IMG/VR virus record: IMGVR_UViG_3300047477_000011
Location: 1 to 27,808 of that record
DNA from: a virus
DNA length: 27,808 bases
Direction: 5' to 3' (one strand)
How positions within the stretch are numbered: position 1 is the stretch's first letter; every line of letters begins with the position of its first letter. The notes beneath the pieces are model-generated. The model searched no databases. It had not been told where the DNA came from and worked only from the letters and a program-made list of their open reading frames with translations. The position numbers and the translations under genes are program-made. This document shows, piece by piece, positions 1-25,828 of this stretch.

Positions 1-3000
1 GTACTATGTATTCCTTCAGTATCAGGAGTCCTGGTGCTTACAATACTACCTATTTTTACTTTTGATTTTGTATCGTCAGTTATCTGAGCTCTTTTTGCTT
101 TTAAATTATTTTTAGATTTTTCAGTAGGATTTGGTAAGTTTCCTTTTGAATCAACCTTTGTAGGCTGTATAATATTTACATCTTCTTCAGTAATAACCTC
201 TCCACTAGCAATCTTTCCAGAAATAGTATTCATAAAATCAATTACTTCTTTATCAGTAAATTCTTTTAATCCTACTAACTTGGCTAATTTATCTAACCAC
301 TCCTTAATTATATTCTTAGCTGGTTGGCTAAGGCTAGAGAAGTTTTCTGCTAAGTATCCTACAAGCTCAGCTAGTTTTTCTTCGTTCCAAAGATCACTTT
401 CAGCATCATATCCATTCTCTACAAAGTCTTGTAATTTAGCCTTCATATCAGCAGGTAATACTTTTTCAATAGCAGCCATCATAGCAGCAGTTACTCTTTT
501 AGCTTCTGGATCAGTCTTAACTATGTTTAAAAGTATAGCATGAAAAACCTCGTGAGCTACAGTCCTACCATTAGCTCTGTTTGGGTTGATATGAATCTTA
601 CCGCCAACAAAAGCGCCTCCGCTATTTTCGTCAGCTCCTTCATTAATCGCAGCTTTGTATTCAGCTTCTGTATTGTAAAGAATTATACCAGTACCAGGTA
701 ATATTCTAGATAATGCTGTTTTTGCTTTTTGAACTAACGAAGGTAAATCATTTGACTTTTCACTCTCATCAATTACTTCTTGCACAGTATTTGCCTCTGT
801 AGTCAAAGCCTTTGCCTGACCAACAAAACTATCTCTATAAGCCATAGCCTCGTCATAATCCTCAAAAGTTTTCTCCTCTATATCTAATTCGTTATTAGGG
901 TCATAAACCATAGCAACAACATCAGGAGTACCGTGCTTCTCTTTATTATAACCATCAGGAACTCCATACTCCAAACTAAAAGGGACTCTAGAAACTATTC
1001 TGAATCCTGCCTTCTCATATTGTTTTGTAAGATATCCATCAAAGTTATCTAACTTAATACCTCCGGCCTCTACAGCTTTATTCAATAAGTCCTGAGCAAC
1101 TCCCTTAGCTTTAGATGTTAATTTTTTAAATAATCCAGCTATGTCACCATCAGGTTTAACTAATGCAGATCCGTCAGCAGTGTCTATAATAGTTCCTTTA
1201 GCGGCATCTTCAGGAGATACCTCACTAACTGACCAATATGTTTCAGGATCAGATTCTTTTGTTTTAGCTAACTCTTCAACGTATGCTTGAGGTGTAATTT
1301 CTGTAGTAGTCTCTTGTGTAACTTCGATAGCAGGAGCTTCTATAACAACTTCATTTGTAGTCTGATTCTCAGCGGATTCAACTTCTTCATTAGTTTGCTC
1401 TTTAGAATTTCTATAGTTTTCTAAAGCTCTTTTTTCTATTTCAGTATCGCTTATAACTACTTCTTTACCTTCTAACTCTGGATTAGCTACTATTTTTTCA
1501 GCTGTCAACTCATTAGCAGCTTGTTCCTTTAACTTAGCTTTTTCCTCTTTAGATATTGTAGTTAATTCATTATAACTACCGTTAAGTATTCCATTTCTAT
1601 TTTGTTCTTGATAATCAAATTCAGCTTTTAATTCTTTTATTTTATCATTCTTTATCTCTCTTGAAAAATTAGAATTATAAACTTCATTATATTTTTCCTT
1701 TAATTCCTTTTGCTTTTGGTTTATATCTAACAAAGCAGATTTTTCTCTTACAGATAAATTAACTCCCTTATTAGCATTGCTAGCAACAACATCAAAGGCC
1801 TGATTATTTAAAGAATTCATCTTCTTGTATAAATCAGCTGTTTCAGATTCTGTTAGTAGTGGATTACTATCAATTTCAGATTTTATTTTTTGTATTTGAT
1901 TCATTAAAGATTGAACCTCTTTTATACTCTTAGTATCTGAATATAATTTTGATTGAGCTACAGCAAAACCTAAACCTCCTCCAATAACAGACATAGATCC
2001 GCCCATGCCAGTACCAGCAAAAAATGACTCAGATCTTTGTTCGTTCTTATCGAAGTCAGTTTTAACAATACCTAATAATTCTTCGTCAACTACAAACTGA
2101 CCCTCAGTAGTTACTAATTCAGTAGTACCTTCTAAGCCAGCATTATAAGAAAACTTACCTATAGAGTTTAACGTAGTTTTAAATAAACTATCCTTAAATA
2201 ATTTTCTAGAAGCGGAAGAAGCTGCGGAAACAGTTCTTTCTAAATCCTTAAGTATCCTTGCTGTACCTAATTGCTCAGGGATAAATTCAGCTCCAGCATA
2301 TAGCCATCCGGCAGCTAATTTTTCTCCGTCAGAATAAATTCTACCAAATGGTTTTTTAGCTTCATCTTCTAATTCTTTTATTTTTTGACCTCCAGAAGAC
2401 ATAGATACAAGAGCTGTACCAGCTGGACCTCCTAAATAAATTGTACCAAGTATAGGAATTTGTTCAGAACCTAATTGAGTTGCATATGATCCTAAATCAG
2501 ACCAACTATTTAGTTTAGTTGCTTTATATCTATAAAATGGAGATGTAAGGTCTTCACCTTCTTGCATAACATCAGATGCAGAGTCAGAAAGTAATTGGCC
2601 TAGTACTGGATTTATTCCTGTTCTGTTCTGCTTAAGAGTTTCTCCGGCTAACTTCGTAGCTCCTCCAGCTATTGTTTTTAATCCTCCATAAAATAAACTT
2701 GCGCTTTTCTCAAAATCATTATAGTTATATTTAAATAATTCTAATTTCTCTTGATCATCATTAGCTAATTTTAAAAGGCTATCGTAGTTTTTTGACAAAT
2801 GATCCAGACCATCAGCCGCTTTTTTAGCCTTCTCTAATAAAGAGTTGTACTTATTTATTTGTTCTGGAGTTGGATTTTTCTTGTCAACTTTTTTAGAGTA
2901 TTCTTCAAACTGAGATATTTGAGATTTAAATACCTCAGCACTAGCGACTTTCTCTCTTAATATATCGTTACTTCTAAGTTGGTTTAGTTTTAACTCTTTC

Positions 3001-3761
3001 CAAATACCTTCTCTATCGTATCCTCTAGGTAGATATCCGTCTATTAATGAGTGTAGTTGATCTTGCTCGTCATTCTTTAAGAATATCTCCTTAGCCTTTT
3101 TATTTATCTCTTGTTCTGTTATTTTAATTTCAGGTGCTTTTTGACCTTTAGGAACATTTAATTCAGCTTGTTTTTCTTCTATAAGTAATTTTCTAGCAGC
3201 TTCTTTTTCTGCTTGTAAAGGTCTATAATCTCCTATTTTAAAATCTTTATCTCCGCCTAATTGCTCGTTAATAAAGTTTAATGGAGTACCTACAAATGTA
3301 TTATATGACTTTTTTAAACCTTCCTTTACTCCATCAATAAATTGAAATTGATCAACTTCATCATTATATCTTTCTAGAGATTTTTGAGGATTTATATTTT
3401 TTAACGCATAGTCATAAGCGTCATTTGCTACTTGCAGACTTTTATTTACTGGAGTATAGTTTTCAGTTGGTTTTATTAATCCAGAATCAAATGCATTAGC
3501 ACTACCAATTAATCCTGATGATCCTTTAGGCGTACTTCCACTTGAAGAACCCGATGCCGGTTGAGGTATCTGTTTGTCTATAACCAACGAAGTATACGCA
3601 TCCTTCGGTTGTGAGTTTGATCCCCATACTTCTTCTTGAGAAGTAGGCTGAGAAGTTACTTTTTTTTTTACTTCAGAATAACCACTTAAATCTAAATTTA
3701 ATTTTTTTCCTTCTTTGTATCCACTTAAATCTAAGTTTAATTTCTTTTTAGGATCTGGCAT
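1..3761 (-). CDS. Giant polyvalent internal virion protein with zincin metallopeptidase motif (C-terminus beyond window)
   Basis: The frame opens at the ATG at 3761-3759, one base after the stop of the preceding gene, and stays open to base 1, so at least 1253 residues are visible and the C-terminus is missing. The N-terminus has a 13-residue tandem repeat with core KKLNLDLSGY. Residues about 150-430 are charged and helical. Gly/Ala-rich hydrophobic stretches lie near residues 430-455 and 575-605. A segment at about 890-955 contains QYEKAGF and ends in PDVVAMVYDP, which resembles a GNAT-like domain of phage polyvalent proteins. HEVFH at residues 1070-1074, inside GRTVAHEVFHAI, is a zincin HExxH motif. 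An acidic stretch ending EEKLAELVGYF follows it and may supply the third ligand. Last gene of the ejection-protein operon. Family knowledge suggests a protein packed in the head and delivered into the host; the protease target is unknown. No RNA polymerase motif is seen in the visible part. Confidence 0.8.
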   Translation of the reverse strand, partial: MPDPKKKLNLDLSGYKEGKKLNLDLSGYSEVKKKVTSQPTSQEEVWGSNSQPKDAYTSLVIDKQIPQPASGSSSGSTPKGSSGLIGSANAFDSGLIKPTENYTPVNKSLQVANDAYDYALKNINPQKSLERYNDEVDQFQFIDGVKEGLKKSYNTFVGTPLNFINEQLGGDKDFKIGDYRPLQAEKEAARKLLIEEKQAELNVPKGQKAPEIKITEQEINKKAKEIFLKNDEQDQLHSLIDGYLPRGYDREGIWKELKLNQLRSNDILREKVASAEVFKSQISQFEEYSKKVDKKNPTPEQINKYNSLLEKAKKAADGLDHLSKNYDSLLKLANDDQEKLELFKYNYNDFEKSASLFYGGLKTIAGGATKLAGETLKQNRTGINPVLGQLLSDSASDVMQEGEDLTSPFYRYKATKLNSWSDLGSYATQLGSEQIPILGTIYLGGPAGTALVSMSSGGQKIKELEDEAKKPFGRIYSDGEKLAAGWLYAGAEFIPEQLGTARILKDLERTVSAASSASRKLFKDSLFKTTLNSIGKFSYNAGLEGTTELVTTEGQFVVDEELLGIVKTDFDKNEQRSESFFAGTGMGGSMSVIGGGLGFAVAQSKLYSDTKSIKEVQSLMNQIQKIKSEIDSNPLLTESETADLYKKMNSLNNQAFDVVASNANKGVNLSVREKSALLDINQKQKELKEKYNEVYNSNFSREIKNDKIKELKAEFDYQEQNRNGILNGSYNELTTISKEEKAKLKEQAANELTAEKIVANPELEGKEVVISDTEIEKRALENYRNSKEQTNEEVESAENQTTNEVVIEAPAIEVTQETTTEITPQAYVEELAKTKESDPETYWSVSEVSPEDAAKGTIIDTADGSALVKPDGDIAGLFKKLTSKAKGVAQDLLNKAVEAGGIKLDNFDGYLTKQYEKAGFRIVSRVPFSLEYGVPDGYNKEKHGTPDVVAMVYDPNNELDIEEKTFEDYDEAMAYRDSFVGQAKALTTEANTVQEVIDESEKSNDLPSLVQKAKTALSRILPGTGIILYNTEAEYKAAINEGADENSGGAFVGGKIHINPNRANGRTVAHEVFHAILLNIVKTDPEAKRVTAAMMAAIEKVLPADMKAKLQDFVENGYDAESDLWNEEKLAELVGYLAENFSSLSQPAKNIIKEWLDKLAKLVGLKEFTDKEVIDFMNTISGKIASGEVITEEDVNIIQPTKVDSKGNLPNPTEKSKNNLKAKRAQITDDTKSKVKIGSIVSTRTPDTEGIHS
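3682..3750 (-). repeat. Tandem 39-base coding repeat at the start of the giant gene
   Basis: Two direct copies with a 39-base period begin at 3682 and 3721 on the plus strand, both starting ccacttaaatctaa. They are well conserved over about the first 28 bases and encode two copies of KKLNLDLSGY, each followed by a short divergent linker. The period is a whole number of codons, so the duplication kept the frame. Confidence 0.85.
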
Positions 3762-6455: not shown

Positions 6456-7202
6456 TTATGGGTAACTTTTAAAAATGCTGCTTCCTACCGAAAACAATTC
6501 AACTCTTGACGTACTATCATTCTCTAATTCAAACTGCATATAGTATCCTCTAGCTCCATACGACTCCGCTGTGCTATTCTTTAAACATAAGACATAGTCA
6601 GATATTAACGGAATATTTCCTCCTGTTACAGATGTGTTTATGGTAATTGAATTACTTGACACAGATGTAATAGGTCCTAACTTCATAAGGGCTCCAGCAT
6701 TATTCTTGTAAGCAATGTCTCCAACATTTATGATACTTCCGATACCAAAACTAAACGTCATTACTACCGCGGCAGGATTAACTGAATTTACAGATGACAC
6801 TCCGCCTATTCCCTGAGCTGATCTCATTGATAGATTAGTATCTGACTCGTATCTTCTTATGTATCCGAAGTAGTCTCCTTCCTTTAATGTAAAATAAGAT
6901 GGACTAATGAAGCCTGTGTCCAAATCAGTAACAACATTACAGTTCCAAGAATCGTCGCTATTTAACGATACGGTCTTAAAGTTCTTTACCGTTCCGTTTT
7001 CTACATTGAACACACTAGTTATCTTAGAGTTATACTGAACCCCATAGAAGTTATTTCTAACTTCATTGGAGTTGTGTCTGTATAAGTTTCCGTTCTTAAA
7101 TGTATAGAAATAAGAGTTCATACCAATCATTTTTTCTGGTATAAAAGAGAAGAACGATGTCCATCCTTTTGAGTCTTCGCTAAATGATAGTGTATATGCC
7201 AT
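6456..7202 (-). CDS. Conserved tail protein (possible tail hub), 248 aa
   Basis: The N-terminal part (GWTSFFSFIPEKMIGMN, YTFKNGNLYRHN, NNFYGVQYNSKITSVFN) is a pattern I recognise as recurring in tail proteins of crAss-like and other Bacteroidota podoviruses, where it sits next to the large muzzle protein. The rest is beta-rich with many Ser, Asn and Val residues. There is no catalytic motif, signal peptide or membrane segment. It follows the 119-aa gene by 15 bases; that gap is A/T-rich (repeated TAA/ATAA, no Shine-Dalgarno), typical of Bacteroidota initiation regions. Its stop lies just before the promoter of the next unit. A tail hub or nozzle component is inferred from resemblance and position; the exact place in the virion is unknown. 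Confidence 0.8.
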   Translation of the reverse strand: MAYTLSFSEDSKGWTSFFSFIPEKMIGMNSYFYTFKNGNLYRHNSNEVRNNFYGVQYNSKITSVFNVENGTVKNFKTVSLNSDDSWNCNVVTDLDTGFISPSYFTLKEGDYFGYIRRYESDTNLSMRSAQGIGGVSSVNSVNPAAVVMTFSFGIGSIINVGDIAYKNNAGALMKLGPITSVSSNSITINTSVTGGNIPLISDYVLCLKNSTAESYGARGYYMQFELENDSTSRVELFSVGSSIFKSYP

Positions 7203-7217
7203 TTTATTTATTTATTA

Positions 7218-7577
7218 TTAAACACAAGGAGCACATCCTGCTATTGATACTATTGAAGAGGCTTCAAAGTTTACAGGATATCCTAACCAAATTTGATTTA
7301 TGGTAGTTTCTACACCTAAATTATTTATATAAGTAACTGAACCTCCACCTGGATGCACTGGATCATCTAATTCCCAGTATCCATCATAACAATAAGCTGT
7401 AGTAGGTATTGTACAGCTAGCTATAGCTGTTAATAACCCCTCAAACTGTTGTCTATAATTTCCTCCGAAAGAATAATATCCGTCAGGAGCTTTTGTTGTT
7501 AATGCAGTATCAGTCCATACAGCTGTTGCCGTAGAGAAGTCTGCTGTGTCTATGTAGTATGTTGAACTTGTTGCCAT
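7218..7577 (-). CDS. Small tail/adhesion-type protein, 119 aa
   Basis: Contains YYIDTADFSTATAVWTDTAL followed by TTKAPDGYYSFGG, a signature I associate with C-terminal modules of Bacteroidota phage tail proteins. Further on are a Cys pair near AYCYDGYWELDD and a C-terminal CAPCV. In other phages this signature often follows a 'Y.LCYD...AC' segment in one chain. Here the LCYD segments are in the C-terminal part of the upstream 1765-aa protein and this module is a separate gene. The gene follows that protein after a 25-base A/T-rich spacer. No known enzyme motif; probably a structural or receptor-contact protein of the tail. Confidence 0.7.
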   Translation of the reverse strand: MATSSTYYIDTADFSTATAVWTDTALTTKAPDGYYSFGGNYRQQFEGLLTAIASCTIPTTAYCYDGYWELDDPVHPGGGSVTYINNLGVETTINQIWLGYPVNFEASSIVSIAGCAPCV

Positions 7578-7602: not shown

Positions 7603-10600
7603 TTAAGAACATGAATTTTGTATAGCACTAATTAATGTTGTTGCATTAAATGAAGTATTATATTGACCTCCTGTATTTGTAGCTAAACCTTGCCAAACTG
7701 TTAACGAAGCTCCTGAACCTAAAACCAATACCTTTATTCCTTTAGATATACAATCGTTTGTAAGTTGAGTTACTTTGTCTTGATCTATTTGGTTGTAAAT
7801 ATCATCATTACCTCCTGGTTCTGCATCTGTTATTAATATTATATATTTAGCAACACCTTGTCTAAATGAATTTGTAAAATCAGAATTAACAATTAAATCT
7901 ATAGCCATATCTGAAGGTTCTGGTATACTAACACCCCATCCTAAAGGCATAATTGCTGTATTTATTTTATTTAACTGATTAGTAAAAGAAATTTCATTGT
8001 TTAATTGAAACATCTCCATAGCTGTTATCCATTGATATTTACCAGATATACCAGTGTTTATATATTTTTGATTAGTAGGTAAAGATGTGTAATATTCACT
8101 TTGACTATAGTCATTTGGAGCGCCAGAATAACTTCCTGAAAACGAAGCGCTTATACCTTCATCAGCTAATACTAAAGACAATCTATAATCGTTAGTTCCT
8201 GATTGAGTATCTATTGTAGATATTATAGCCGCCGCACCACTTTTAGCTTCTTCTATAAAATCACCCATACTTCCAGTATAATCAAAAACAAAAGCTACAT
8301 CCATACCTGAGTCACAAGAATAAATAGGATCGCAATCACATGCTAACACACTATCAGTAGCATCATAACAAAGGCTTATCAAATAACTATCTACCGGCGG
8401 TAGTGTACAACTTTCAACTTCAATAAGCGAAGGACACTCTGTGCCTCCATTAGAAGCTGGAGTAATTACCGTTCTGGTTCTAGATCTAGACTCGTCTACA
8501 CACTCTGACCATTCTGACCATTCTGATACCGTACAATTAACAGGTAAGCACCCATTACAAGCATCAGAAGATGACAGTGCATCATAACATAGTTCAATTT
8601 CATACGAAACAACACAGCCGACACAAGCTTCCGCTGAACTATCGACATCATAACACAACTCAATACTATATGCATTCACTAAATCCCATACCAAATACAA
8701 GTACTGATATCCACTAGGATTGTTGTATACAAACGAAGACTCATACTTCCCCGTAACAGGATTAACTATTGGTGTAGCTTCTACTAGTAAAGGTCTTAGT
8801 GTGTTTATTTCTGATTCAGTATATAACGTATCAGATACTAAGTACTTGAATGAGTTAGCTAATGGATCAAAATCAAAAGTGTCTGTAATGTATTTCTCAG
8901 ATTGAATCTTAATCGCACTTCCAATCGCAGGAATAACTCCTACAGAAGGTTGAGCAGTATTAGAATTGTACAAAGACACTCCGTCACTTTCAAGTAATAC
9001 AAAGTCAATATTAGTCGGGCTTGTATATCCGTCAAGCGTCCAGTTGTAGTTATTATGAATAGTTTCACCTTCGTTTGATGGAGAGTTAATTACTATTCTA
9101 ACAACTGTTATAGGATCAGATACAGTACAGTTAAATACAAAAACATAAGTAGCGTCTACTGGAGTAATGGTAACTGTTGCAAATGTTGGGTTTACTTTTG
9201 TCTTGTTAAATATTAGTGTTCCAGATCCTGATACTATTTCATTTATAACAGTAGTGCCGTCATAAGAAACGGATACAGTGGCCGATCCTCCTTCAAAGTT
9301 GTAATCAAAAGAAGCCTCTCCAATAACACTTCCAAACTCTAAGTTAAACAATAACTCGTTATTAGCATCATCCTGAGATATAGTAAATCCACACTCAAAC
9401 GTCTCTACTGGTGCTGGAGTTGTATCGTCTGTTAATGAAAGTACATACTCTTTTAAGTACGGATCATAACCTCCAATTTTAACTCGGCTTATACTATCCT
9501 TAAATTCATTTCTAAACCAACCATTCATGCCTAGTTTAGATATTGGAATCAACGCATCTGACTGAGACGCTCCGCCCTTTAAATTAATAACAGACGTTCT
9601 CTTAGTGTCTGTAAAATAAATATCCTCTCCCCAAGAAGTAAAACTCGCAGCATCATTACTAATTCCGTACTCCTCTATTCTAGTTATCTGTGTACCAAGT
9701 ACTTCAGGAACAGATGTAATTGCTCCTCCACCTGCCGCGTCAGAAAGTAAATTCTTTTCAACAAGTACGTAAGATATTTTATCTTCTTGCAGTGTTAGTA
9801 CATCTTTTTTTCTTCCGTGAAGTATATTGATTGGACCAAATGATTTTTCACAGTCTTTAAAGTTTGCCAATGCTAAGTTAAATTCGTTTAACTTATTAAC
9901 ATTAGTTTCCTCGTTGTATATTCCGCTGTATGTTATTCCTGCGTATCTATGCGCTTCTTTAAAATCTTCTTGAGAAACAGCAGTAACTCTGCTTCCAAGA
10001 TAGAACGGAGCGCCAGTTAATGAATCTCCTATCTTATAACTCTCAACCCCATTACCAAATGTAAAGCAGTCAAAGAAGTTTAAGTTTACGGTTGCAAAAG
10101 CATTAGATATGGATTGGTTTACTACGTTTCCTTGGTGGTACCCGTCAATAATATCAAAGGATTCACTTCCTTCAAAGTATGTCTCTCCATTAGCTTCTGC
10201 AGCTTCTGTTTCAAATACTATTACAGATTCAGCTCTTTGTACTTGTATTTGACAACTTATTCTTGAATATTTAGGATTTATTCCTCCGCATTTAGGCGTA
10301 CCGCTTTTTATAACAAAAAATAACCTTCCGTCAGTAGAGTCCTGTTGAAATTGATACTGATTAGTTCCTGCAATATTTGGAATATCTCCGGTATAAGCAC
10401 CTGGTGTTTCTATAAAATCATTTTCGTTTACAGTATCATCTCCTCCAGTTGAATCACCAGATGTTAAATCAATATTATCTCCTCTTATAAAAGCATATAA
10501 GCTCAAATAATCTTGAGATGCAGTAAATGATTTAGTGAACGTATACGTTCTTTCTCCACAACTAGATCCTCTAGCAAATCTAAACACTTTAAAGTTAATA

Positions 10601-12900
10601 TTTATCAAACTCCCAGCTGGAACGTCATACGGAGAGAATTCTAACTCACCCGGATCTCCAAATAACGGATTATCTATATAACAAGGATAAGATAGACTAG
10701 GATAATTACCAGATGAACCTAATTCACCTTCATCTATAAAAGAATTCTCTGTATATGTTGCGGAGAAATTAGACGGCTTTAGCTTCATGTATAATCCAGC
10801 CGGCTCAATAATATCTTTCTCGGATTCGTTTTTATTATCTGCAATAAAATCTTTAGATTTAGCTTCTAAGGCTAATACTTTTGTTTTTACAAGGCTTTTT
10901 ACAACCCCGTTTGAATCTGCCTTTACAATTAATGTAGAGTTTTCTTGAACCTTACTTCTATTATCTCCATCTAATTTAAACCAAGAAAATCCAGAGTCTT
11001 CTTCAAAATAAATATTAGAGTATACTACCTGATACTGACTCTTAGATGGTTTTACTACAAACTTATATTTAGTAGCCCATGTAGGAGCTAAACTATTTAT
11101 ATTTACTCTTATATAATTTTTTGTATCAGAATTGTATGTAGGTACAAATACCGTGTTATTAGTATCTACTAAAGCAGTAGAACTACGCCCATACTCATCC
11201 ATATATACAATGGCTGCCTCGTAATCTCTATTGCTATGTAAGCTCTGTTTAGATCCTAATTCAGAAAAACTAGCAGATGTTATAGCGTTTGAAAGATATT
11301 CATAAGCATAAACAAAAACTCCAGGAGAAGATTCAAAACTAAACTTTATAGCAGGAATTTGGATTCCTATTACATCTGATCCTAATGACGCAGATATAAT
11401 GAAAGATCCATCAGGGCTTGCTATTCCGCTTCCGACTTCATTCCATCCAGATTTAGTAACTATCTGACAGTTAAAGAAATCTGTCAATGAAGTTCCAGCG
11501 CAAGCATTAGAATATACCTCATGAGTAGATATGGCGTCTATAAATTCTTGACTAGTAGCCAACTCATAAACACTTCCATAGCCCTTCTGAATATTAAATA
11601 TAAAATCATACTCAAAACTATTTTGCGGAGCATCAGTATAAGATGCATCTCCAGAATAAGAGTCGTGCTGCAAGTTTATGTTTATCGAAAGATATGATCC
11701 GCTAGTTAACGAAACACCTTCTAAATCTATATTAAACTGAGCGTTATTTACCGTTTTAGTAGTTGAAGAATCTATAGTATATACTGTTCCGTCAGTTAAA
11801 TCTACAGGTAACTCAACAAAGCCAACCTCTTCAGATATTAAACTTAAATCATAATCTATATCTATAGCGTTCCCATTCTCGTCCTCTATGTTGTATCCAT
11901 CAACATAGTTACCATACATTAATCTATTACCCATTGTTGTCTGGGCCTTAGCTAATCTAGGTACGTTATCAAAAAGACGAAGCAATTCACTTTCTGTTAG
12001 CGTAGTGTATATTTTTTTATTTGTAAATGTTATTTCTTGAGGACTATTATCGAACCATCCCTCTTGTTTCTTATTGTATTTTTCTATAACGTTTACAATG
12101 TTAGAATCAGAAAATTTAAAGCAAAGATCAATGCCAACTACATTCTTATCTCCAGTATTAAAATTAATATTAACTGAGTTAAATATATTTTGCATTCCGG
12201 CATTTTCAAATGTAGAATAATCTATACTAAAATTACCAGGCTCAAACGCTATTTCACTAAACTGAGATAAAGCACTGTACTCTCCATCTTTATATTTGTA
12301 TCTGTAAGCAAAGGATATAAACTTATCTGTTATGTAGTTCTCTTCGTCAGGAACAAACGCAAGTGTAATATTAGGCGCTGATGATGGAGGTGCTACTATT
12401 ACAGATATATCACTCTCATCAATTTGATCTACACCTAATATAGGGTCAGGATAGTTTCTGTCTACATTTATTTTTCTAGGCGGATTTAAATTATCTGTCC
12501 AAAACAATAAGTTATCTATCAAGTTTATCCCTGTTACTAAGTACTTAGGATTAAAGTTGAGCACCTCTTCAGATATAATGTGATACTTTAATAGATTGTT
12601 ATTAGTGTTAAACGAAACAACCATATCAACTAACGGAGATGCAACAAGCCAATATATCGTCTCTTTAGATCCATCCTCATACGCACCAATACAGGTAGCA
12701 TCTACAAGAGGAGATCCGTTATACTGTAGTGTAGTTAACTTTATATTCCCCTTAGTATTCTCTACAGCACCGATACTATTATTTTCAGTAGATCCAATTC
12801 TAATATTCAACGCGTCAATGTACTCCCCAGCAGGGACTACACGCTCGTCAAAATCCTTATTCATTCTACCGGCAATGAAATTTACATCAACGTTTGCCAT
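7603..12900 (-). CDS. Large tail muzzle/nozzle protein with C-terminal TSP1-like and von Willebrand A domains, 1765 aa
   Basis: The N-terminus (NFIAGRMNKDFDERVVPAG, EYIDALNIRIG) is typical of tubular tail or muzzle proteins of podoviruses, which close the tail tube below the rings. Residues up to about 1150 are beta-rich. An Ig-like beta domain is likely at about 1160-1265. From about 1405 there are Cys-rich repeats with core LCYD (two copies, then a third at about 1503-1530). Between copies two and three, at about 1453-1500, lies a thrombospondin-1-like segment with SEWSEWSEC, RSRTRT and GGTEC. Residues about 1530-1765 form a vWA domain: FVFDYTGSMGD carries a DxTxS metal-binding (MIDAS) motif with D1540, T1542 and S1544, and IILITDAEPGG supplies the later Asp. 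Starts 5 bases after the 305-aa gene. The C-terminal domains suggest metal-dependent binding of a host-surface ligand; this role is inferred. Confidence 0.85.
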   Translation of the reverse strand: MANVDVNFIAGRMNKDFDERVVPAGEYIDALNIRIGSTENNSIGAVENTKGNIKLTTLQYNGSPLVDATCIGAYEDGSKETIYWLVASPLVDMVVSFNTNNNLLKYHIISEEVLNFNPKYLVTGINLIDNLLFWTDNLNPPRKINVDRNYPDPILGVDQIDESDISVIVAPPSSAPNITLAFVPDEENYITDKFISFAYRYKYKDGEYSALSQFSEIAFEPGNFSIDYSTFENAGMQNIFNSVNINFNTGDKNVVGIDLCFKFSDSNIVNVIEKYNKKQEGWFDNSPQEITFTNKKIYTTLTESELLRLFDNVPRLAKAQTTMGNRLMYGNYVDGYNIEDENGNAIDIDYDLSLISEEVGFVELPVDLTDGTVYTIDSSTTKTVNNAQFNIDLEGVSLTSGSYLSININLQHDSYSGDASYTDAPQNSFEYDFIFNIQKGYGSVYELATSQEFIDAISTHEVYSNACAGTSLTDFFNCQIVTKSGWNEVGSGIASPDGSFIISASLGSDVIGIQIPAIKFSFESSPGVFVYAYEYLSNAITSASFSELGSKQSLHSNRDYEAAIVYMDEYGRSSTALVDTNNTVFVPTYNSDTKNYIRVNINSLAPTWATKYKFVVKPSKSQYQVVYSNIYFEEDSGFSWFKLDGDNRSKVQENSTLIVKADSNGVVKSLVKTKVLALEAKSKDFIADNKNESEKDIIEPAGLYMKLKPSNFSATYTENSFIDEGELGSSGNYPSLSYPCYIDNPLFGDPGELEFSPYDVPAGSLININFKVFRFARGSSCGERTYTFTKSFTASQDYLSLYAFIRGDNIDLTSGDSTGGDDTVNENDFIETPGAYTGDIPNIAGTNQYQFQQDSTDGRLFFVIKSGTPKCGGINPKYSRISCQIQVQRAESVIVFETEAAEANGETYFEGSESFDIIDGYHQGNVVNQSISNAFATVNLNFFDCFTFGNGVESYKIGDSLTGAPFYLGSRVTAVSQEDFKEAHRYAGITYSGIYNEETNVNKLNEFNLALANFKDCEKSFGPINILHGRKKDVLTLQEDKISYVLVEKNLLSDAAGGGAITSVPEVLGTQITRIEEYGISNDAASFTSWGEDIYFTDTKRTSVINLKGGASQSDALIPISKLGMNGWFRNEFKDSISRVKIGGYDPYLKEYVLSLTDDTTPAPVETFECGFTISQDDANNELLFNLEFGSVIGEASFDYNFEGGSATVSVSYDGTTVINEIVSGSGTLIFNKTKVNPTFATVTITPVDATYVFVFNCTVSDPITVVRIVINSPSNEGETIHNNYNWTLDGYTSPTNIDFVLLESDGVSLYNSNTAQPSVGVIPAIGSAIKIQSEKYITDTFDFDPLANSFKYLVSDTLYTESEINTLRPLLVEATPIVNPVTGKYESSFVYNNPSGYQYLYLVWDLVNAYSIELCYDVDSSAEACVGCVVSYEIELCYDALSSSDACNGCLPVNCTVSEWSEWSECVDESRSRTRTVITPASNGGTECPSLIEVESCTLPPVDSYLISLCYDATDSVLACDCDPIYSCDSGMDVAFVFDYTGSMGDFIEEAKSGAAAIISTIDTQSGTNDYRLSLVLADEGISASFSGSYSGAPNDYSQSEYYTSLPTNQKYINTGISGKYQWITAMEMFQLNNEISFTNQLNKINTAIMPLGWGVSIPEPSDMAIDLIVNSDFTNSFRQGVAKYIILITDAEPGGNDDIYNQIDQDKVTQLTNDCISKGIKVLVLGSGASLTVWQGLATNTGGQYNTSFNATTLISAIQNSCS
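8330..8675 (-). repeat. Three Cys-rich LCYD repeats flanking the TSP1-like module
   Basis: Within the 1765-aa gene, three segments encode Y-x-I-x-LCYD-(about 6)-AC-(1-2)-C, at about 8617-8673, 8550-8605 and 8332-8390. The plus-strand DNA shares catcataaca in each copy. The TSP1-like segment (about 8400-8545) lies between the second and third copies. A short tandem 'tctgaccat' at about 8505-8524 encodes the doubled SEW. Confidence 0.75.
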
Positions 12901-12905
12901 ATATC

Positions 12906-13823
12906 TTACTTAATCCATTTATCACGACCTCTCATATTCATCAATAATCTACCCGGATGAATATTACTTAATCTTATTTTTGCGTTTCTTAGAAGGGCTG
13001 TTTTATCCTTCTTAGCTCTATTAACTACATATTCTTGAACTCCAACTTTAGCGTTTAATATAGCATACTTAATGTACGCATATATAAACTCTTCGGCCAA
13101 CTTATTTATACTAACTTTAGAGTCATCACCATCCTGCATACCATCAGAAATGTATTCTAAAATACACAGCTCTCCAGCCATACCAGAACCAAAATTAATG
13201 ACACCTGAAGCTTTATCTATTCTATAAGTAGGATTAACGTTAGCCGTCTCGGTATTTAAACCATAGTTGGCTCCAACAGCATAATCAAAGTACCAGTTCT
13301 GATCTATGTTTACACCTTCTCTTCCAGCGTATAATCCACTTCCAGGATACATTGTCTTTTGTTGATTAGTAACTCTATCGTAATCTAAAACAGAAGTACC
13401 TTCAAGTACTTTTCCATCTTGATCAAATAATACTCTACAATTATTATCCTGTAAATAACTATTGCTGTAATTCGTTTGAATGTTTTCAGTAAGCGGTCGT
13501 AATACACCATCCTTATAAAGAGATATTCTAACGTAGTTTACGTAATTGTTTGGTAATACGAACTTAAGGTCGTCACAGATACTGATCTCTAGCACCTTAA
13601 TTTCCTTAAGTGCGTCGTAGTTTATTTCTTGAATTCCTCTCTTTGCGTGGAATAATACATTGTATCTCTGTACGTTATTTATTAATTTATCGTTACCAAC
13701 ATACATAAGCATAAAGTTATTCACGATATCTTCTAATGATATGTATTGGTACGATCCCCAATTTTCTCCTTCAGGTATGTTACCTGAATTCTCATAGTAT
13801 TGATAACCAGTTAAATATGCCAT
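12906..13823 (-). CDS. Head-tail ring / tail completion protein, 305 aa
   Basis: The segments YQYISLEDIVNNFMLMYVG, NNVQRYNVLFHAKRGIQE and FVLPNNYVNYVRISLYK, and the C-terminal MNMRGRDKWIK, form a pattern I recognise as conserved in connector or ring proteins of crAss-like phages. It has a helical N-terminal half that would pack against the portal or the first ring, a beta-rich middle, and a basic helical C-terminus (about 250-305). No signal peptide or membrane segment. It follows the 229-aa connector by 2 bases and precedes the muzzle gene by 5 bases; this order (connector, ring, muzzle) is the usual one in these phages and supports the call. Numbering against a specific ring protein cannot be settled without alignment. 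Confidence 0.8.
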   Translation of the reverse strand: MAYLTGYQYYENSGNIPEGENWGSYQYISLEDIVNNFMLMYVGNDKLINNVQRYNVLFHAKRGIQEINYDALKEIKVLEISICDDLKFVLPNNYVNYVRISLYKDGVLRPLTENIQTNYSNSYLQDNNCRVLFDQDGKVLEGTSVLDYDRVTNQQKTMYPGSGLYAGREGVNIDQNWYFDYAVGANYGLNTETANVNPTYRIDKASGVINFGSGMAGELCILEYISDGMQDGDDSKVSINKLAEEFIYAYIKYAILNAKVGVQEYVVNRAKKDKTALLRNAKIRLSNIHPGRLLMNMRGRDKWIK

Positions 13824-24614: not shown

Positions 24615-25166
24615 TTATGTTAATGTTATTGCTCTTGTTGCTCCAATTGTTGTTCCAAATGGATTTATAGTAGTTGATAATGTATAAAGCCATACGTTTG
24701 TAGGGTTATTATAGCTAACAGAAAAAGATGTCCTATTGTATGTATTTCCTCCAACACCCAATGTAGTCCATCCGCTAGGCTGAACCGTTGTGCTTCCATT
24801 GGTAATTGTAAAAGCTAAAGTATTTCCTCCCCAATATAAATCTCTTAAAACAGCATTTGCCCCCGCAGGAGTTGAAATATTATTGCTTGATATAGATCCA
24901 TAAATACCCTCTCTGTATCCAAATTGAGAATTTCCACCCACAGTCATAGTTGCTGAAAACCCAATAATAATTCCCCAAGATCCTTTAGGTACTAATTGAT
25001 TACTAGAATATCCTGATATAGTAACATTATACTTAGTTACAATATCTAATCTTGTCATACATTGATTAGACGTAACCTGAGACTGCCCTGATTTTAAGGT
25101 AGCTCCGCTAGTCTGAGCATCTGTATAACTTACCATTTGATTACTTGCTAAATTTGCCCAAGCCAT
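24615..25166 (-). CDS. Beta-rich tail/fibre protein, 183 aa
   Basis: The N-terminus (MAWANLASNQMVSYTDAQTS, then LKSGQSQVTSNQCMTRLDIV) is a short module that I associate with tail or fibre proteins of Bacteroidota phages. The rest is rich in Gly, Ser, Thr and Asn with alternating hydrophobic residues, typical of beta structure, and has a single Cys. No catalytic motif, signal peptide or membrane segment. Its ATG shares one base with the stop of the homing endonuclease gene. It probably once followed the fibre gene directly, before the endonuclease entered. Likely a receptor-contact or fibre-associated protein; the role is inferred. Confidence 0.72.
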   Translation of the reverse strand: MAWANLASNQMVSYTDAQTSGATLKSGQSQVTSNQCMTRLDIVTKYNVTISGYSSNQLVPKGSWGIIIGFSATMTVGGNSQFGYREGIYGSISSNNISTPAGANAVLRDLYWGGNTLAFTITNGSTTVQPSGWTTLGVGGNTYNRTSFSVSYNNPTNVWLYTLSTTINPFGTTIGATRAITLT

Positions 25167-25828
25167 TATTTCTCAAGTTGTTTAATTCTGTTTTCTAATT
25201 CTGCTATATATTCTTCTTTGCTTATTGCTTTTATATTAAACAATCTTTTATCTCTTGACTTTTTATTGTAATTTAATCTGTTTAATATTACTCGGTATTT
25301 TATGTTATATTTAAACGCAAGATCTACGATTGATTCAAATAATTCCCCTGTATCTGTGTTAATTAATTGAATAGCCGATGAGCTTTTTATTCCAGTATAC
25401 TGTCTTAATTTGCATTTAGTTTCCTCTTTTCTTGGAACGCCTATCTTTAAATTAAAAAGTTTATCCTTTAATTCCTGACTCATTTTTCTGCCTTTCCCAG
25501 CTTTTGAAAGTTTTTCCCTAGTATCTTTAGAAACTATTACGTTAATAGAACCATCTCCTCCATCTGTCATATTAACAAGTAGACCTTTCATCAAGTCTTT
25601 TCTTCCATACATATCTATTAAAAGCTGCTCTATTTCGCAAGCATCTTCCCAAGATATATCTTTATATACAATTTTTACTTTTATATTAGTTTTATTTTTT
25701 ATATTTATCCAATAACTATTTCTACCAGAACTAAATTCATTAGCTCTTTTAAAATATTTATCACTTCCTATTCCAATATAAAAAACTTGATTATTATCCT
25801 CTCTTATATGTTGATAAACGTATGCCAT
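25166..25828 (-). CDS. Free-standing GIY-YIG homing endonuclease, 220 aa
   Basis: A mobile DNA-cleaving enzyme. The GIY-YIG domain spans about residues 3-95: VYQH at 4-7 takes the GIY place, YIG is at 17-19, R28 in FKRANEF fits the catalytic Arg, and E67 in ACEIEQLL fits the metal-binding Glu. YGRKD and NMTDGGDG follow as in phage members. Residues about 99-145 hold NUMOD3-like DNA-binding motifs (KLSKAGKGRKMS, KIGVPRKEETK). Residues about 148-200 look like a NUMOD1-like part (IQLINTDTGELFESI). The C-terminus is a short coiled coil. It sits between two fibre genes with 1-base spacing on one side and a 1-base overlap on the other, and no intron signs are visible. Confidence 0.88.
   Translation of the reverse strand: MAYVYQHIREDNNQVFYIGIGSDKYFKRANEFSSGRNSYWINIKNKTNIKVKIVYKDISWEDACEIEQLLIDMYGRKDLMKGLLVNMTDGGDGSINVIVSKDTREKLSKAGKGRKMSQELKDKLFNLKIGVPRKEETKCKLRQYTGIKSSSAIQLINTDTGELFESIVDLAFKYNIKYRVILNRLNYNKKSRDKRLFNIKAISKEEYIAELENRIKQLEK

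Follow-up and report, generated by a model that had tools for sequence, protein, structure and literature searches.

The window analysed here is a stretch of 27,808 nucleotides of viral DNA (IMG/VR record IMGVR_UViG_3300047477_000011, positions 1 to 27,808). The region studied encodes a tail muzzle on the minus strand, and its features, in the direction of transcription, are as follows:

12906..13823 (-), structural protein of the virion encoded upstream of the muzzle, probably a ring protein (phrog_13977, E 2e-48)
7603..12900 (-), muzzle N-terminal chain, 1765 aa (phrog_14478, E 4e-266), with a core of residues 1-1150 and a variable tail of residues 1151-1765
8671..9450 (-), segment of the tail (residues 1151-1410) that alignment shows to be conserved among related muzzles
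8614..8658 (-), LCYD cap copy 1, LCYDVDSSAEACVGC, residues 1415-1429, by motif comparison across related muzzles
8548..8592 (-), LCYD cap copy 2, residues 1437-1451 (short DNA copies 74-84% alike)
8401..8535 (-), spondin-like TSP1 domain, residues 1456-1500, a form with four cysteines that has the WxxWxxC and RxRxR layers (PF19028)
8332..8373 (-), LCYD cap copy 3, residues 1510-1523, directly before the vWA domain, by motif comparison across related muzzles
7606..8325 (-), vWA domain, residues 1526-1765 (PF00092, 28.4 bits; AF2 pLDDT 92.7; Z 18.9)
8269..8283 (-), MIDAS motif DYTGS, residues 1540-1544 (D1540 in 38/38 homologues, T/S1542 in 38/38, S1544 in 37/38)
7909..7923 (-), PEPSD at residues 1660-1664, predicted to be the second MIDAS loop (E1661 in 37/38, D1664 in 38/38)
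7810..7833 (-), ITDAEPGG at residues 1690-1697, predicted to be the third MIDAS loop (D1692 in 37/38)
7218..7577 (-), ORF of 119 aa lying in the variable zone that separates the muzzle genes, with the recurrent domain YYID..F..AT.VWTD..APDGYYS..YRQ
6456..7202 (-), muzzle C-terminal chain (PF25729 crAss_MUZ_C, E 4e-13; phrog_38031, E 4e-57)

The N-terminal chain had 40% identity to MW202828 and 32–35% identity to structural proteins of Cellulophaga and Flavobacterium phages, and it was weakly similar to the crAss 'stabilization' proteins. A preliminary description of this DNA had likened its N-terminus to a podovirus tail tube or muzzle protein. The family profile phrog_14478 identified it as a muzzle, and the MUZ_C domain was found in the nearby gene, so that both marks of a crAss-like muzzle were present. 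All the short strings quoted in that description were found in the same minus-strand ORF, and the span it had singled out (7603-8675) corresponds to residues ~1409-1765. The E-values, the homologues and the dN/dS values ruled out chance or a misread frame as the source of the ORF and its domains. The window derives from a crAss-like podovirus, probably with a flavobacterium-like host, as judged solely by the bacteria that its isolated relatives infect.

Seventy complete N-chains were compared, 60 of them with a recognisable MUZ_C, the window included. The muzzle was split in 59 of these 60, elemoA (L004) being the only unsplit one in that set; in L004 and L191, MUZ_C and the N part form one chain. 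The product of gene 6456-7202 probably supplies the rest of a propeller blade that is cut short where the gene is split. Among the 70 chains, the tails ranged from 260 to 615 aa and the zone separating the muzzle genes reached 4.5 kb, zones of up to this size being seen in L062, L070 and L059. Other tails and zones gave matches to Fib_succ_major, Lcl_C, cadherin-type and bacterial Ig domains. Matches to 2OG-Fe(II) oxygenase and glycosyltransferase-like domains were also seen in the tails and zones scanned, which suggests that enzymes are encoded at the tail-tip locus. The 119-aa ORF matched no Pfam family, and its YYID-type domain was found in the zone or fused to the muzzle tails of L005, L006, L007, L012, L017 and L086.

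The three LCYD motifs start at residues 1415, 1437 and 1510. The pattern LCYx8CCxC caps the N-chain at the same place in ~45 related muzzles, and it was not found in the other ORFs of the loci scanned. The order in the window is cap-cap-TSP1-cap-vWA, and L044 likewise has three copies. LCYD forms a conserved cap at the C-terminus of the muzzle N-chain, triplicated here around added cassettes. The repeats noticed in the preliminary description are copies of this cap and no oddity of one protein.

The TSP1-like module proposed from the letters alone was recovered by PF19028 (TSP1_spondin), which scored 41.1 bits (E 2e-10) in the whole protein and 43.9 bits when the tail was scanned alone (cut-off 41). 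The strings SEWSEWSEC, RTRT and GGTEC lie in or beside this match. Among PDB sequences, the TSP1 repeats of complement C8 and spondin were matched, with an E-value of 2e-5 for C8 alpha. The score for PF00090 was 14.6 bits against a gathering score of 21.6, and the domain has four cysteines rather than six; several other phage TSP1 copies pass PF00090. Compared with L005, TSP1 plus cap 3 showed a dN of 0.058 and a dS of 0.645, and the muzzle core showed 0.048 and 0.918, respectively. Both segments are under purifying selection. A DNA pattern scan found more phage TSP1 copies in proteins of L229, L232, L241, L257, L276 and L289, and a 65-kb relative that is 78% identical (G401) encodes a muzzle of 2471 residues with 11 TSP1 copies. 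The match of MW202828 up to residue 1501 was only apparent, MW202828 having no TSP1. PF19028 had no match in 299 genomes of the family of the L204 MAG, but 14 control genomes were equally silent.

The vWA domain scored 28.4 bits with PF00092 as an isolated domain (cut-off 23.8) and fell below the cut-off in the whole protein (20.7); the same family matched 37 of 38 vWA homologues at E<=0.01. AF2 gave a useless model from the single sequence (pLDDT 32.5) and a confident one with 38 sequences (pLDDT 92.7, pTM 0.91). The model has the Rossmann-type alpha/beta fold of vWA domains. Integrin beta I-like domains were its closest solved folds, with an E-value of 6e-9, a Z of up to 18.9 and an rmsd of ~2.6-3.0 over 195-200 of 240 residues at 12-18% identity. 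The assignment to vWA made in the preliminary description is thus upheld, with integrin beta I-like domains as the nearest solved structures. The closest predicted viral structure was A0A7S9SU38 in BFVD, a VWFA protein of Virus NIOZ-UU157 (TM 0.90, 34% identity), on a carrier of 986 aa.

The putative metal site had been recognised as a DxTxS motif at D1540 with a later ITDAEPGG, and the alignment bore this out: D1540, T1542 (T or S), S1544 and the third-loop D1692 were kept in 37-38 of 38 homologues, as was D1580. In a classical MIDAS the second-loop ligand is a threonine, and integrin beta has a glutamate at this position, in a PE motif. In the window vWA the threonine is likewise replaced by a PE motif, PEPxD, with E1661 as the predicted counterpart of the integrin glutamate by motif and general knowledge. 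The acidic ADMIDAS pair after DxSxS is absent, positions 1547-1548 being variable in the 38 rows, so the domain is integrin-like and not an integrin. In the alignment with integrin beta3 (9iuj), vWA range 5..240 lies on 109..349 with a starting offset of 104. This offset would place D1540, T1542 and S1544 on the known beta3 residues D119, S121 and S123, and motif similarity pairs the PE and TDA loops with those of the integrin. The profile match puts DYTGS on DQSSS of Mfa5, whose crystal structure contains a vWA with a MIDAS metal (PMC7835359). Both domain matches on which the preliminary description depended were significant, the fold was confident and the MIDAS residues were conserved; the geometry of the site is predicted from these residues and the aligned ranges.

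The pattern ITDAxPGG retrieved 10 vWA homologues with 40-48% identity. An alignment scan found 56 viral loci, but among 84,980 prokaryote genomes it gave just a single full-length match; the scan needs a short exact motif and misses more distant relatives. A profile search of 397 genomes of the prokaryote match's family added one full-length chromosomal lipoprotein (L221), encoded beside an OmpA-family protein. Exact 8-mers, tblastn against phage records and the pattern FDYTGSMG returned no homologue. Across the ~55 viral loci, the proteins that carry the vWA were of eight or more tail or structural kinds, including proteins of ~740, 500, 640, 1200 and 2000 aa, an SprB-repeat/Hoc-like protein (L149) and a laminin-G protein. 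The carriers also bear fn3, SprB, laminin-G and cadherin domains; the domains on these carriers and in the muzzle tails and zones are typical surface domains. Genes beside some carriers matched tail-fibre, baseplate and holin families, most clearly in L174. The vWA tree mixed the carriers: the window's domain clustered (96/84) with that of L150, a carrier of the 740-aa type, and with the SprB type. The vWA of the L191 muzzle, the other muzzle instance, fell elsewhere, and its long branch makes its placement unsure. The vWA is a mobile phage domain. L204 was rejected as a muzzle, its phrog_14478 match covering only a Big_9 stretch of a different, tandemly repeated protein, and the tree was rebuilt without it in that role. 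On this flavobacterial MAG contig (L204:1-4590), two related proteins lie in tandem, the first ending in Big_9/cadherin repeats and this vWA; they may stem from a phage, an injection system or a surface protein.

Comparison with near relatives showed the vWA to be an exchangeable unit. The DNA of L005 is 88% identical to the window through the muzzle and 82% through TSP1; the identity breaks at window position 8314 and resumes at 7611, which is precisely the vWA. L005 retains TSP1 and holds a different 415-bp stretch exactly in place of the vWA. In L006, the chain ends directly after two cap motifs. L191 has an unsplit muzzle with a vWA (36% identical) followed by MUZ_C; this vWA sits between '...GSYDTNKRLYNLSVKL' and 'TVSFSEDSKGWTSF...', the very point where the window gene splits ('...GGYDPYLKEYVLSLTDD' / 'MAYTLSFSEDSKGWTSF'). 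By the domain order of crAss001, the insertion and split site appears to be a propeller blade hairpin. Neither the muzzle core nor MUZ_C matched any PDB sequence, so the insertion is described without gp44 residue numbers. The preliminary description had proposed a search for the same fusion in related muzzles, and it was found as a vWA in L191 and as TSP1 in L005 and G401. Related phages swap the cassette, presumably to change receptor. In L191 (7403-9969), MUZ_C itself is interrupted: a 734-aa ORF separates it from a further ORF that holds its second half (model 139-244).

The crAss001 muzzle is hexameric, sits at the end of the tail and has been proposed to touch the cell surface (PMC10172136). 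The window muzzle belongs to the same family as crAss001 gp44 by PHROG and PF25729; gp44 also offers the tail-end position, and crassvirus muzzles vary in length by insertions (PMC10172136). Gp44 is a single chain with its reported length variation in the crass and IG2 domains (PMC10172136), whereas the window gene is split and TSP1 and vWA lie at the split. Mfa5, the fimbrial tip adhesin of Porphyromonas (Bacteroidota; 6tnj/6to1), was the best PDB sequence match of the phage vWA profile (E 0.016) and likewise has a MIDAS vWA at the tip of a surface appendage. It differs from the window protein in being part of a bacterial fimbria, in keeping the classical Thr at loop 2 and in having both an ARM insertion and an Ig domain with an isopeptide bond (PMC7835359). 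The integrin beta I-like domains, the best solved folds, share the D-x-S/T-x-S and TDA loops and, by motif, a PE loop, the roles of the integrin residues being general knowledge, but the window chain lacks the PSI, hybrid, EGF and membrane parts, and its acidic ADMIDAS positions are variable. TRAP-type apicomplexan adhesins combine vWA and TSP1 in one adhesive chain; this is an analogy only, with the domain order reversed and an unrelated carrier. Modular phage adhesins are already well known, and a jumbo-phage review names other lectin-type adhesion domains. No report of vWA or TSP1 at phage tail tips was found among the open-access papers searched.

We propose, with a probability of about two in three, that the muzzle N-chain and its TSP1/MIDAS-type vWA cassette form a six-fold, metal-dependent adhesin for a secondary receptor, swapped among phages. 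The N-chain is extended at its variable cassette site by TSP1 and an integrin-beta-I-like vWA, and homology with the hexameric crAss001 muzzle would put six head copies at the tail tip. TSP1 may act as a rigid spacer or contact glycans. The vWA would grip a ligand on the host surface via a divalent metal held by D1540, T1542, S1544, E1661 and D1692. The S74-type fibre would make the first contact and the vWA head would provide secondary attachment afterwards, with specificity altered by cassette exchange. We also consider it possible, though unlikely, that the vWA is an integrin-like allosteric switch in which ligand binding at the MIDAS would be relayed to the propeller and open the muzzle; the domain would then be more than an anchor and would trigger ejection in a metal-dependent way. 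This idea stems from the predicted position of the cassette on a blade of the propeller gating the tail channel.

Some vWA domains serve in assembly or enzyme complexes rather than adhesion, which counts against the adhesin reading, as do the PE motif in place of the MIDAS threonine and the PF00092 score of the whole protein. The vWA might bind a phage protein, such as a fibre or the separate muzzle C-chain, in a metal-dependent manner without touching the host. The position of the cassette between the two halves of the split propeller and the general ability of vWA domains to scaffold protein complexes fit such a role. However, L005 and L006 are nearly identical elsewhere and have no vWA, so assembly does not depend on it, and the same vWA occurs on unrelated proteins of other phages; we regard this role as quite improbable. 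Non-specific decoration, with the head sticking virions to polysaccharide, matrix or particles and leaving host choice unaffected, is also unlikely, though less so. A sticking role has been proposed for Ig-like domains on capsids, the vWA is also found on the Hoc-like/SprB-repeat protein of L149 and several other structural proteins, and the assortment of domains at the cassette site is broad. Nevertheless, the head is located on the muzzle, at the ejection end, and its clean exchange between near-identical phages looks like receptor switching. That a functionless vWA of bacterial origin hitch-hiked into the muzzle is very improbable: its active residues are conserved across the viral rows, there are two muzzle instances, the frame is open and the neighbouring TSP1 has a low dN/dS, although homologues do exist in the flavobacterial MAG (L204) and as the chromosomal lipoprotein beside the OmpA-family protein (L221).

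Little is understood of how crAss-like phages bind their receptors. If the adhesin reading is true, these phages share the metal-dependent grip of integrins and bacterial pilus tips, placed on a defined cassette site, and this site is a place where receptor specificity could be read or predicted across environmental crAss-like phages. The window phage and L005, which differ in the vWA cassette, form a natural pair that makes the adhesin idea testable.

Two further ORFs of the window, both on the minus strand, were noted by eye only. ORF 25166-25828, between the fibre genes, has the look of a GIY-YIG-type homing endonuclease (MAYVYQHIREDNNQVFYIGIGSD...). The large ORF 3-3761 is truncated at the end of the window; with its HExxH motif (AHEVFHAIL), it perhaps encodes a virion-borne metallopeptidase.
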